A DNA stretch of 64,000 nucleotides from Terriglobia bacterium (GTDB lineage Bacteria; Acidobacteriota; Terriglobia; JAIQFV01): contig JAIQFV010000003.1 in assembly GCA_020073085.1 (NCBI GenBank), forward strand, positions 62,001 through 126,000. Direction: 5' to 3'. The position numbers and the translations under genes were made by a program. Below are positions 54,570-60,014 of the stretch, piece by piece; positions within the stretch are counted from its first letter, which is position 1; the number at the start of each line of letters is the position of its first letter. The notes beneath the pieces were generated by a model. The model worked only from the letters and a program-made list of their open reading frames with translations, ran no database searches and had not been told where the DNA came from.

Positions 54570-57386
54570 ATGCAGGAAACGGAGAGATCTATTATGACCA
54601 TGACGGGGGATCAAGACGGGCACGCCGCGAGACTCAAGAATCTCAATAGCGCCTTGAGAGAAAGCGAAGCCCGCTTTCGGGGGATTTTTGAAAGCAGCAA
54701 TACGGGCATCTCCTTTGGCGATCGGGAGGGTAACCTCCTCTACGCCAACAAAGCCTTCCAGGAGCTGGTCGGTTATTCAGGCCAGGAGTTGCTCGGGATG
54801 AACGTTGCGCAACTGACCCACCCGGATTATGTTGAAACGGAATGTAGTCTCATCGCAGAGCTTTTGCAGGACGAGCGCGATCAGTACCGGATGGAAAAGC
54901 AATTCATCACCAAAGAGAATTGCTGTATCTGGGTGGATGCGGCCGTCTCAGTCATCCGGGATGATCATCGCAAGCCGCTTTACTTCATTGGCGTGGTCAA
55001 TGAAATCACGGAACGGAAGCGGATGGAAGAAGCGCTGCGGGTGAGCGAGGCGCGGTTCCGATCTCTCATCGAAAACGCCCCCGTTGCCATCAGCGTGGCC
55101 CGATGGGAAAAGATTTTCTATGCAAACGCAAGTTTTCGACTCCTGTTCGGGTTTCAGGATGAGAGGGAACTCCGCGACCAGCCGGTGTTGGATGTATTTG
55201 CGCCCCAATGTCGAGACAAGATTGCGAATCGAATGCGGCGTCACGCCCTGGGAATGCCCGTCCCCCATGAAGAGGAAACAATTGGCCTGCGAAGGGACGG
55301 CTCGCAATTCCCCATGCATCTGGCGGCAACTCGAGTTCAGCTTGCGGAGGGGCCGGCAACCCTGGCCTTCATGAGTGACGTCACCGAACGTAAACGCATG
55401 GAGGATGCACTGCGTGAGAGTGAAGAAAAGTTCCGAAACATTATCGAGAACATGCAGGACTATGTTCTTGTCGCCTCCGTGAGCGGGGCGATCACTCTTG
55501 CCAATCCCAGCGCCGTCAAGATGCTGGGATACGAAAGTGAGCAGGAATTGCTTGGCAAAGACCTCGGCCAGGCTGCCGGGGCAGTTCCCAGAGAACGGGA
55601 GAGACTTGCGAGGGCGCTCGGAAACTCCGGATTTGTCCGCAACTATCGCATGCGTTTCAAGCGCAAGGACGGCTCCGATATCCTCGTGGAAGAAAATATT
55701 CGCCTGGTGCGGGGAACCGACGGAAACCCGGCTGCCATTGAGGCCATCGGGCGGGATATGACGGAGCGGATCCGTGCTGAAGAGGAACTGCGAGTCGCCA
55801 AGGAGGCTGCTGAAGCCGCCACTCGGGCGCGCAGCCAATTTCTGGCCAACATGAGCCATGAGATTCGCACCCCCATGAACGGGGTCATTGGGATGACGAA
55901 TTTGCTCCTCGATACGGAACTGACCCTGCAACAGAGAGAATATGCCGAAACGCTCCGCACCTGCGGTGAATCGATGCTGGCGTTGATCAATGATATCCTG
56001 GACTTCTCGAAAATCGACGCCAGAAAACTCACGTTTGAGATCCTGGATTTGGATTTGAATGAAGTGGTCGAAGATACGCTGACCCTGGTCGGCAAAGCGG
56101 CCCGGACCAAGAAACTCCAGTTGGCCGGGATTGTCGTCCCGGATGTTCCGACCCAATTGCGGGGGGACCCCGGGCGTTTGCGTCAGATCCTCACGAATCT
56201 CGTGAGTAATGCCGTCAAATTCACGGAGCAAGGTAAAGTCACGGTCCGCGTGGCCAACGAAGCCGAGACCCCGACCCATGTAACCCTCCGCATTGAAGTG
56301 GAGGACACCGGCATCGGCATTGCGCCCGAAACGCAGGCCCGGTTGTTCAAGGCATTCAGTCAAGCCGACAGCTCGACGACGCGAAAGTACGGGGGCACCG
56401 GGCTGGGGCTGGCGGTCTCCAAACAACTGGTTGAGATGATGGAAGGTCAGATTGGTGTGAAAAGTTCCGTGGGCGAGGGCTCGACATTTTGGTTTACCGT
56501 CCGCCTGGAGAAGCAAGCGCATCCTGCCGCCGCGACGGAGAGCGGGAAGGAACATCCCGCCAATCCAGCTTCAGAACCTCGTCCCTTGCGAAAAATGCGT
56601 ATCCTTGTGGCTGAAGATAATTTGCTCAACCAAAAGGTGACGATGGGACAATTGCGCAAGCTGGGTTACAGCGCCGATGCGGTCGCCAATGGTCTGGAAG
56701 TGCAGGAGGCCATCCGGCGTATTCCGTACGACGCCATCCTGATGGACTGCCAGATGCCCGAAATGGACGGCTACGAAGCCACGCGCCAGGTCCGGCTCCA
56801 CGAACAGAGCCAGCAAAAGAAACCACTGTATATCATTGCGATGACGGCCCATGCCATGGTCGGTGACCGCGAGAAATGTCTTTCGGCGGGGATGGACAAC
56901 TACCTCAGTAAACCGGTGCGGCTGGAGGAACTGCGGAAGATGTTGGAGAACTGCGCGCTTTCACAACCCGCCGACATTCAAGCGGCCCCACCTGCCCAGC
57001 TTGAATCGGCGCCAGGTCCTTCGTCCCCCGCTGCAACGCCCCTTCCGCCGCCCTTCGACTTGAGACGGCTTCAGGAAGTATGCGGCAGCGATCCGGTGCG
57101 GGTGCGTGAGTTGGTCGACCTCTATCTCGTTCAGTCGGAGGAAATCATTACCGGTCTGGAGGCAGCCGTCAAGACCAGCTCCGCCCATGAGGTGAATCGT
57201 CTGGCCCATAAGCTGGTCGGATCGAGTTTGACTTGCGGGATGAAATCAATCGTGACGCCCTTGAAAGTTCTGGAGCAACAGGGACGGGATGAACAATTGT
57301 CCGATGCCGGGCTTTGGCTCTCCCAAGCCCGCCAGGAACTGGAACGACTCCGCACTGCGCTCACCAGTTATGTTCGAGAAATTTGA
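54570..57386 (+). CDS. Hybrid sensor histidine kinase PAS-PAS-PAS-HisKA-HATPase-REC-Hpt
   Basis: This is a 938-residue soluble kinase without membrane helices. Three PAS/PAC units (about 30-155, 160-280, 290-405) each start with an ESEARFRGIFESS-type helix. The HisKA motif ANMSHEIRTPMNGVIGMTNL has the phospho-accepting His430. The HATPase domain shows NLVSNAVKFTEQG (N box), DTGIGIAPE (G1), YGGTGLGLAVS (G2). A REC domain (ILVAEDNLLN, Asp726 in LMDCQMPEMDGYEATR, KP in LSKPVRL) follows, and a C-terminal Hpt domain with His880 in LAHKLVGSS. This gives a full His-Asp-His relay in one protein. The likely next acceptors are the two REC-Hpt-REC proteins directly downstream. The signal is unknown, probably cytoplasmic. 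Confidence 0.95.
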   Translation: MQETERSIMTMTGDQDGHAARLKNLNSALRESEARFRGIFESSNTGISFGDREGNLLYANKAFQELVGYSGQELLGMNVAQLTHPDYVETECSLIAELLQDERDQYRMEKQFITKENCCIWVDAAVSVIRDDHRKPLYFIGVVNEITERKRMEEALRVSEARFRSLIENAPVAISVARWEKIFYANASFRLLFGFQDERELRDQPVLDVFAPQCRDKIANRMRRHALGMPVPHEEETIGLRRDGSQFPMHLAATRVQLAEGPATLAFMSDVTERKRMEDALRESEEKFRNIIENMQDYVLVASVSGAITLANPSAVKMLGYESEQELLGKDLGQAAGAVPRERERLARALGNSGFVRNYRMRFKRKDGSDILVEENIRLVRGTDGNPAAIEAIGRDMTERIRAEEELRVAKEAAEAATRARSQFLANMSHEIRTPMNGVIGMTNLLLDTELTLQQREYAETLRTCGESMLALINDILDFSKIDARKLTFEILDLDLNEVVEDTLTLVGKAARTKKLQLAGIVVPDVPTQLRGDPGRLRQILTNLVSNAVKFTEQGKVTVRVANEAETPTHVTLRIEVEDTGIGIAPETQARLFKAFSQADSSTTRKYGGTGLGLAVSKQLVEMMEGQIGVKSSVGEGSTFWFTVRLEKQAHPAAATESGKEHPANPASEPRPLRKMRILVAEDNLLNQKVTMGQLRKLGYSADAVANGLEVQEAIRRIPYDAILMDCQMPEMDGYEATRQVRLHEQSQQKKPLYIIAMTAHAMVGDREKCLSAGMDNYLSKPVRLEELRKMLENCALSQPADIQAAPPAQLESAPGPSSPAATPLPPPFDLRRLQEVCGSDPVRVRELVDLYLVQSEEIITGLEAAVKTSSAHEVNRLAHKLVGSSLTCGMKSIVTPLKVLEQQGRDEQLSDAGLWLSQARQELERLRTALTSYVREI

Positions 57387-57409
57387 ATCCAGTAGTCTGA
57401 GAAGGAATT

Positions 57410-58600
57410 ATGAAGAAAATTTTAATCATTGAGGACGACCATATCATTTCTGCCATATACCGCAACAAGATCGAGCTTGCGGGATACTTGGTTGAAGTCG
57501 CGGTGGATGGGGAGGAGGGGTTGAAAAAGCTAAACATCTTCAAGCCTGACCTCGTTCAGTTGGACCTTATGCTGCCCAAGGTGAACGGGCTCGAGATCAT
57601 CAAGCAGATTCGCAGCCGCCCCGAGTGGAAAACGATGCCGATTATCGTGTTGGCGAACGGCTATGACATCGATATGTTCCGAGTGGCCTGGGAAGCTGGC
57701 GCCAACCGGTGCATTTCAAAGTTGAACTCCTCACCTGATGTCGTGCTCGACAGCATCGACCAACTTCTGGGTCTCGAGGAGTCCGCTTCGGAGCTCCTTC
57801 AGGAACAAGGGGAGCGGGCCGCCGCAGCGTCAGCCGCCGAGACCTCTCAAGACACCTTTGCAGCACAAATGCTGGATCTGGAGACGACCCTTCCCTCGGA
57901 AATCAGGCAGCAGTTTATCCGCCGCTCGCCGCAAATTCAGACCGACTTGCTTCAGCGGTTGCAGGCCATCCGGAAGTGTCCGACCGAGTCCGCGCGTGGA
58001 CCGCTTTTAGATCAACTCTCCCGACCCGTCCACTTTCTGGCGAACTACGCGGGAATGACCGGTTTTCATCGGATCGCCCATTTGGCCGATGCCTTCGAAG
58101 TCATGCTCCAGGAGCTTTGCCACGAGCCGAATGAAGTCACCCCTTCGACTTTGTGTACGGTCGCTCAGGCGGTGGATTGCCTGGTGATGCTGCTCAAGGA
58201 GGCACACAACGCTCAGGGCGAATTGGTTCCTTCGGGGCTGATCCTGGCCGTTGATGACGATCCAACCTCCCGCTGGGCCATCTCGTCTGCCCTCGCCCGA
58301 GTCAATATAAAGGCGGTCACCGTGGAAGGCCCGGAGCTGGCACTGAAGCTCCTCGCCGAGAATTCCTTTGATCTGATCTTTCTCGATGTGCAAATGCCGG
58401 GGATGAGCGGATTCGAATTGTGCAAGGAACTGCGCGGGATGCCGAAGCACAAGGAAACGCCGGTGGTCTTTGTGACCGTCTTGTCAGATTTTGAAGGGCG
58501 CCTCCAGTCGAAGTCCAGCGGGGGCGACGATCTCATTGCCAAACCCTTTCTCCTGGCTGAACTCGCTGTCAAGGCCTTGACCTTCATTGTGCAAAGCTAG
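57410..58600 (+). CDS. REC-Hpt-like-REC response regulator, copy 1
   Basis: This is a 396-residue phosphorelay protein with no DNA-binding domain. REC1 (1-120): LIIEDD, Asp52 in VQLDLMLPKVNG, Lys in CISKLNSSP; the usual Thr/Ser switch position reads Ala (IIVLANGY). A middle four-helix domain (about 160-270) has an Hpt-like motif, PVHFLANYAGMTGFHRIAHL, with His but Ala instead of the usual Lys-Gly. REC2 (about 280-396): LILAVDDDPTS, FLDVQMPGMSGFELC, VFVTVL, IAKPFLL. It starts 24 bp after the kinase. With no output domain it probably stores or passes phosphate. Confidence 0.88.
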   Translation: MKKILIIEDDHIISAIYRNKIELAGYLVEVAVDGEEGLKKLNIFKPDLVQLDLMLPKVNGLEIIKQIRSRPEWKTMPIIVLANGYDIDMFRVAWEAGANRCISKLNSSPDVVLDSIDQLLGLEESASELLQEQGERAAAASAAETSQDTFAAQMLDLETTLPSEIRQQFIRRSPQIQTDLLQRLQAIRKCPTESARGPLLDQLSRPVHFLANYAGMTGFHRIAHLADAFEVMLQELCHEPNEVTPSTLCTVAQAVDCLVMLLKEAHNAQGELVPSGLILAVDDDPTSRWAISSALARVNIKAVTVEGPELALKLLAENSFDLIFLDVQMPGMSGFELCKELRGMPKHKETPVVFVTVLSDFEGRLQSKSSGGDDLIAKPFLLAELAVKALTFIVQS

Positions 58601-58832
58601 AGGGGAGGGCCGGAGGAGCGCAATTCGTTGGGTTTACCGGGTGCAATCAAGCGGTGCGCCGAAGCGCTGGGTGCTTACGCCGATGCCGTGACCTCCAGGC
58701 AGGGTGGGCGACCGATTCGCCGCGGCCTTCAGGCGACAAGCTTCTTTCGGTACCGTCATGAGGTGCAGTGATTCTGCGATGCGTTCTTCGATGACGCGAC
58801 AGAATTTCCAATTCAATGTCCGAGGGTAACCC

Positions 58833-60014
58833 ATGAAAAAGGTTCTGATCATTGAGGACGACCTGGTCATCGCTGCCATCTACAGCAATAAGATTGAGCT
58901 TGCAGGATACCTTGTGGATGTTGCCCTGGATGGGGAAGAAGGACTGAAGAAGTTAAATGCCTTCAAACCTGATTTGGTCCAACTGGATCTGATCCTGCCG
59001 AAGATTACGGGACTGGAAATCATCCGGAGGATCCGGATGGAACCGGAGTTGACGTCGCTACCGATCGTGGTGGTTTCCAACGGATACGATGGGGATATGT
59101 TTCGAGAGGCCCTGGAGGCCGGCGCCAATCAATGCGTCTCCAAGTTGAACTCCTCTCCCAAGGTGATCCTGGATATTATTAACGAGCTGTTGACCCCCTC
59201 CTTGACGGCGACGGTCGCGCAGGCCTCAGATGCCACATCTGCTGCTGCGGCGGTCCAAGGGGTTGCCCCGGCCCACCCCTTGGATATTGACACGGCCCTT
59301 CCTTCGGAGATCCGACGACAATTCATGGAACGATCCCCGCAAATCCAGGCAGATTTGCAGGATCGATTACAGGCTGTCCTTAAGGCCGCCGACACCGCCC
59401 GCACGACCCTTCTCGAGGACCTTTCGCGGCATGTTCACTTCCTGGCTGGCTACGCCGGGATGACCGGATTTCAGCGGATCTCCCATCTGGCGAGCGCCTT
59501 TGAAGTCATGCTTCAGGAGCTCCGCGAAAAACCGAGAGAGATCACGTTCTCGACGCTGGGAACGATAGCGAACACGGTCGATTGTCTGGTGCGGCTATTG
59601 GGGGAGGTTCCTCATTCTCAACTCGAGTTTCCGTCCTCGACCCTAATTCTGGCGGTGGATGACGAGCCCATTTCCCGGCGCACCCTATGTACGGCGCTCT
59701 CCAAGGCCCGTTTGAAGGCCGTCAGCGTGGAGGATTCTGAGGTGGCCTTGAAGCTTCTCACCGAGAACCACTTTGACCTGATCTTCCTGGATGTGGATAT
59801 GCCTGGCATTACCGGATTCGAGCTGTGCCAGGAACTGCGCACCATGCCCACCAACCGAGAAACCCCGGTAATCTTCGTGACCGTTCTATCGGATTTTCAA
59901 AGCCGAGCCCAATCCAATTTGAGCGGTGGAACCGATCTGATTGCCAAACCTTACCTGCTCAGTGAGCTGGCAGTCAAAGCCCTCACCTTCATCGTCCAAA
60001 TCAAGTCGCGTTGA
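58833..60014 (+). CDS. REC-Hpt-like-REC response regulator, copy 2
   Basis: This 393-residue paralogue of the preceding gene has the same domain order. REC1: LIIEDD, Asp52 in VQLDLILPKITG, and a Ser at the switch position (VVVSNGY), unlike copy 1. The middle domain has HVHFLAGYAGMTGFQRISHL. REC2 has LILAVDDEPIS, FLDVDMPGITGFELC, IFVTVL and IAKPYLL. The repeated stretches between the copies run the whole length; the least conserved part is the linker at about 125-150. The 232-bp gap between the copies lacks genes and has a GAGGGT ribosome binding site. A gene duplication is the simple reading. Confidence 0.88.
   Translation: MKKVLIIEDDLVIAAIYSNKIELAGYLVDVALDGEEGLKKLNAFKPDLVQLDLILPKITGLEIIRRIRMEPELTSLPIVVVSNGYDGDMFREALEAGANQCVSKLNSSPKVILDIINELLTPSLTATVAQASDATSAAAAVQGVAPAHPLDIDTALPSEIRRQFMERSPQIQADLQDRLQAVLKAADTARTTLLEDLSRHVHFLAGYAGMTGFQRISHLASAFEVMLQELREKPREITFSTLGTIANTVDCLVRLLGEVPHSQLEFPSSTLILAVDDEPISRRTLCTALSKARLKAVSVEDSEVALKLLTENHFDLIFLDVDMPGITGFELCQELRTMPTNRETPVIFVTVLSDFQSRAQSNLSGGTDLIAKPYLLSELAVKALTFIVQIKSR

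Follow-up and report, generated by a model that had tools for sequence, protein, structure and literature searches.

Hpt-type bundle between two receivers in output-less proteins encoded behind a hybrid histidine kinase

We analyzed a 64,000-nucleotide stretch of DNA from a Terriglobia bacterium (hereafter the window), in which a hybrid histidine kinase gene is followed by genes for two paralogous proteins, here called adaptors, that carry an Hpt-like domain between two receiver domains. By profile and predicted fold, this middle domain is a CheA-P1-type Hpt four-helix bundle, and comparison of family members indicates that its His is dispensable across the adaptor family. We put at about even the chance that the adaptors are output-less, kinase-coupled response regulators in which the chief role of the Hpt core would be that of a scaffold or docking element and phosphotransfer would be optional.

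Layout of the locus and fold of the middle domain

In the ORF list, three genes in the same direction span positions 54570-60014: the hybrid kinase, then P0002, then P0003. Their features, by window position, are:

54570..57386, + strand, hybrid histidine kinase, 938 aa, PAS x3-HisKA-HATPase-REC-Hpt (Pfam)
55827..56021, + strand, kinase HisKA dimerization/phosphoacceptor domain (Pfam HisKA 5.5e-23, residues 420-484)
56601..56945, + strand, single receiver of the kinase (Pfam Response_reg, residues 678-792)
57108..57356, + strand, C-terminal Hpt of the kinase (Pfam Hpt 9.3e-10)
57207-57209, + strand, His codon of the kinase Hpt (AHKLVG: His present, no Lys)
57410..58600, + strand, P0002, first REC-Hptlike-REC protein, 396 aa (Pfam, pairwise alignment)
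57884..58219, + strand, middle Hpt-like domain of P0002 (Pfam Hpt just below cut-off; alignment)
58031-58033, + strand, His208 codon of P0002, motif HFLANYAGMTGF
58241..58567, + strand, second receiver of P0002 (Pfam Response_reg, residues 278-386; catalytic set complete)
58833..60014, + strand, P0003, second REC-Hptlike-REC protein, 393 aa (Pfam, pairwise alignment; ortholog in a same-genus genome)
59292..59624, + strand, middle Hpt-like domain of P0003 (Pfam Hpt; four helices in AlphaFold; CheA P1 1tqg as best PDB profile match)
59436-59438, + strand, His202 codon of P0003, motif HFLAGYAGMTGF
59646..59972, + strand, second receiver of P0003 (Pfam Response_reg, residues 272-380; catalytic set complete)

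P0002 and P0003 are 65% identical over 395 columns. Pfam placed two Response_reg stretches in each and found no output domain in either, which bears out the first-pass annotation's description of tandem paralogues without an output, preceded by a kinase that already carries a receiver and an Hpt. The same annotation had counted five receivers and three histidine domains in the locus. The five receivers stand, four of them lying in the adaptors and facing one kinase, but the His-bearing domains number four: HisKA, the kinase Hpt and the two middle domains. The kinase gene ends 23 bp before P0002 starts, and 232 bp separate P0002 from P0003; a promoter and terminator scan of the locus gave a signal at chance level or below. 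Chance or artefactual ORFs were ruled out by the identity of the paralogues and because 115 distinct full-length relatives have the same layout.

The catalytic set of the second receiver (acidic pair, phospho-Asp, Thr/Ser and Lys; PF00072) is complete in both adaptors. It is also complete in the first receiver of P0003, whereas in that of P0002 an Ala occupies the Thr/Ser position, the sole case among the 115. With this Ala, an Asn at H+4 and a longer branch in the tree, P0002 looks like the more worn copy. Receivers that are complete except for one Ala, the lack of an output domain and the four adaptor receivers per kinase would suit a phosphate sink or buffer, in which extra receivers draw phosphoryl groups off the kinase Hpt and time the response while the real output regulator lies elsewhere. 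We consider such a sink unlikely: it would have no need of a conserved inter-receiver bundle that keeps its Ser/Thr nearly invariant, and the ORF list shows no evident separate output regulator beside the operon.

Against Pfam Hpt (PF01627), the middle domain of P0003 scored 35.8 bits, above the gathering cut-off of 24.6, and that of P0002 scored 24.0 bits, just under it. At E values up to 1, Pfam Hpt matched 10/10 members of the first alignment and 50 of 51 middle domains. AlphaFold, given 51 aligned members, predicted helices at 152-184, 187-211, 214-232 and 239-257, with a mean pLDDT above 90 in most blocks. Modelled alone, the middle domain again folded into four helices (pLDDT 93.1), in agreement with the Hpt-like helical bundle that the first reading had proposed. 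A profile of the 51 middle domains, searched against all PDB sequences, ranked CheA P1 of T. maritima (1tqg) first (E 3.3e-9) and matched 2ld6 at E 5.7e-9; in the profile alignment, the His falls on the CheA His and the Glu at H+22 on the CheA Glu. Foldseek also placed 1tqg first for the middle domain (E 3.5e-3, TM 0.74/0.78). VIA-align gave a Z of 13.9 and an rmsd of 2.4 over 105 residues against CheA P1; designed four-helix bundles reached an equal Z, so the domain cannot be identified by fold alone. A whole-protein fold search was uninformative on the middle domain, as its list was filled by receivers and PleD. A wholly new fold was ruled out by the CheA P1 profile match, the AlphaFold bundle and the Foldseek result.

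The adaptor bundle thus shares its fold, its sequence profile and the aligned His and Glu with CheA P1, but it has no attached kinase core and lies with receivers on both sides. A Lys at H+3 is usual in CheA P1, including the CheA rows of the profile alignment, whereas it is absent from all 115 middle domains; the His itself, moreover, is replaced in 22 of them.

Conservation of the middle His and of the kinase Hpt

The 115 distinct full-length members (137 aligned matches minus 14 partial rows and 8 duplicates), nearly all from Verrucomicrobiota, form a non-random set that combines the best loci of several searches with 60 chosen places from a longer list of a Verrucomicrobiota order. Their receivers are highly conserved, with Asp in 114/115 and Lys in 115/115 first receivers, and Asp and Lys in 115/115 second receivers, where the Thr/Ser place holds Thr in 112 and Ser in 3. 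The middle His is kept in 93 members (81%), both window copies included, and is replaced in the other 22 by Arg (16), Gly (2), Gln (2), Lys (1) or Ser (1). Both receiver Asp residues are intact in all 22 non-His members, and Glu at H+22 is present in 90/93 His members and 16/16 Arg members. By conservation, the His ranks 14th among 105 bundle columns; the most constant are S240 and T244 (113/115 each), P234 (110/115) and E224 (109/115). A tree made by a quick method without bootstrap has 13 changes of His state, of which at least 8 are forced by starred branches. None of 500 shuffles gave as few as 13 changes, showing that His state is clustered on the tree and hence that His loss is not random decay. 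Since His to Arg is a single base step, mutation may explain part of the prevalence of Arg.

The Hpt of the paired kinase provided an internal control. Of the 113 members with enough sequence ahead of the adaptor (the other two lack it), 82 have a kinase-type Hpt there and the search found none in 31; in 80 of the 82 paired loci, the kinase-adaptor spacing falls between -4 and +85 bp. In these loci the kinase Hpt has its His in 82/82 cases versus 66/82 for the middle domain, a raw contrast that weighs less than the tree count because related members are not independent. Lys at H+3 occurs in just 2/82 kinase Hpts, and the window kinase (HKLVG) also lacks it. Because kinase Hpts, which by position are relay Hpts, do without this Lys, its absence neither parts the middle domain from a relay Hpt nor excludes activity. 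Among the sequences compared, it is the His, not the Lys, that sets the middle domain apart from the kinase Hpt.

The first-pass annotation had read the motif as lacking the usual Lys-Gly after the His and as a possible mark of a variant family. Lys is indeed absent from both window copies, but Gly at H+4 is missing only from P0002 (HFLAN) and is present in P0003 (HFLAG). The distinctiveness of the family holds up; loss of the Lys as its mark is ruled out, since 80 of the 82 sibling kinase Hpts and the window kinase share that loss.

The adaptors could instead form a working branching relay, in which the middle His shuttles phosphoryl groups between the receivers or to another regulator and the non-His members are specialized side branches. 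Retention of the His in most members and in both window copies favors this reading, as does the Glu at H+22 that accompanies it (in CheA, Glu67 is reported to interact with the phosphoacceptor His45; PMC3904827), and so does the adjacent kinase Hpt, which lacks Lys as well. Given this His and CheA-like Glu, selection for phosphotransfer is plausible in most lineages. However, the His changed state repeatedly while the receivers stayed intact, the paired kinase Hpt underwent no such change, and the strongest conservation of the bundle lies away from the His. In addition, the Gly at H+4, reported to be essential in yeast Ypd1 (PMC6341664), is found in just 72/115 middle domains. We therefore regard a branching relay as possible but rather doubtful, and for the window, where both copies have the His, a working relay stays at that level.

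Replacement of the His, mostly by Arg, with the remaining domain intact also recalls AHP6, a plant pseudo-HPt whose phosphoacceptor His is replaced and which is thought to block receiver-Hpt contacts (PMC3572949). AHP6 is a stand-alone plant protein, whereas the adaptor domain lies between bacterial receivers and most members have the His; with a His in both, the window copies are not AHP6-like pseudo-HPts. On this precedent the bundle might act as a competitive inhibitor that mimics the Hpt docking surface and blocks such contacts, a role that is putative for the bacterial members here and that we find very improbable, as most of them retain the His.

Distribution and history of the kinase-adaptor pair

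In the window's own genome, P0002 and P0003 are the only full-length copies. A genome of the same genus (L011) carries a single adaptor gene after the same kinase, and its product is 85% identical to P0003. At E ≤ 1e-45, adaptors were found in 2/61 genomes of the class, both of the window's genus, which rules out the adaptor as a common feature of that class. A sample of the phylum gave at least 1/396 genomes, a lower bound because no more than 4 candidates were scored in each. Within the Verrucomicrobiota order that includes genome G433, 98/196 genomes had an adaptor at E ≤ 1e-80. As the kinase-adaptor pair is common to both phyla, lateral transfer into the window's genus is likely, with Verrucomicrobiota as the candidate donor.

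The tree groups P0003 with the L011 copy and places P0002 as their sister (96, starred branch). The duplication thus seems to predate the divergence of the two species, and the first adaptor copy seems to have been lost from the L011 genome. The sequence leading up to the L011 start codon resembles that ahead of P0002, and the L011 coding start is that of P0003; we infer that a deletion between two tandem copies would produce such a junction.

The window kinase and the L011 kinase (L011:2741-5977) share blocks that are 78% and 72% identical. Between HATPase and Hpt, the kinases of L011 and Verrucomicrobiota have two receivers and the window kinase has one. It lacks the receiver of about 140 aa found directly after HATPase in the L011 kinase, and by this comparison the one retained is the canonical second receiver. 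In four adaptor-paired Verrucomicrobiota kinases (L012, L013, L015 and L017), an N-terminal receiver replaces the sensor domain, and Pfam finds three receivers, HisKA, HATPase and Hpt. Since these kinases start with a receiver and not a sensor, a separate kinase may supply their input.

Variant layouts were also seen. Six Verrucomicrobiota loci (L216-L221) carry tandem REC-Hptlike-REC pairs of about 417 aa and 530 aa, and in the longer partner a long linker follows the first receiver; the complete middle domains shown there have the His. Verrucomicrobiota ORFs of about 800 aa (L106, L111, L112 and L113) contain two Hptlike-REC units in series, the His place being non-His in the first unit and His in the second. 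The distant members L102, L104 and L105 are extended by about 450-500 aa, and these extensions give weak coiled-coil-type matches in Pfam that fall below curated cut-offs. In six of seven longer ORFs (L172 left out), Pfam revealed no output from fused domains; it found only receivers, one Hpt, a PDE8A_N match overlapping the receiver, and weak sub-cut-off matches, several of which were to coiled-coil families.

Known relatives and proposed function of the adaptors

In the open-access literature, we found no paper for the string 'REC-Hpt-REC', none that combined Verrucomicrobia with an Hpt domain, a response regulator and receivers, and no publication on the adaptor family itself. The nearest known kinds that we found, besides plant pseudo-HPts, were a cyclase and the FrzZ two-receiver regulators. 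The Halomonas Hpt-REC-REC-GGDEF diguanylate cyclase likewise combines one Hpt and two receivers in a response regulator, but its Hpt is N-terminal and its output enzymatic, whereas the adaptors have the Hpt between the receivers and no output; its authors stated that they knew of no characterized cyclase of that layout (PMC5907407). FrzZ-like regulators of M. xanthus and Azospirillum also have two tandem receivers (PMC4618731). They are not known to have an Hpt-like bundle between these receivers; the window proteins, with such a bundle between theirs, are not regulators of two receivers only.

Under the scaffold reading that we propose, phosphoryl groups would reach both receivers of each adaptor by way of the kinase's HisKA, receiver and C-terminal Hpt. 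The order of the genes, their overlapping or nearly overlapping starts and the intact receivers point to the kinase Hpt as the likely donor for the adaptors, which may then act through partner binding, like single- or double-receiver regulators. The bundle, which profile and fold trace to a CheA-P1-type Hpt domain, would position the two receivers or a partner. Repeated loss of the His with all else retained argues that its lasting task is not phosphotransfer, and conservation suggests a scaffold or docking role. Phosphotransfer through the middle His would be an optional trait, given up on many occasions across the family and perhaps retained in the window copies. With somewhat less than even confidence, we suggest that the adaptors may be a bacterial counterpart of plant pseudo-HPts, in which a carrier became a docking scaffold between live receivers, with a swappable His and a new, near-invariant Ser/Thr/Glu surface.

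For annotation, these results caution that neither a Pfam Hpt match nor the presence or absence of the Lys is proof of relay activity. If our reading is true, a carrier of the His-Asp relay would have turned into a scaffold in bacteria. Intact and His-less versions would then stand side by side in one family, with the paired kinase Hpt as an internal control, and the role of a phosphate-free Hpt fold would become directly testable.
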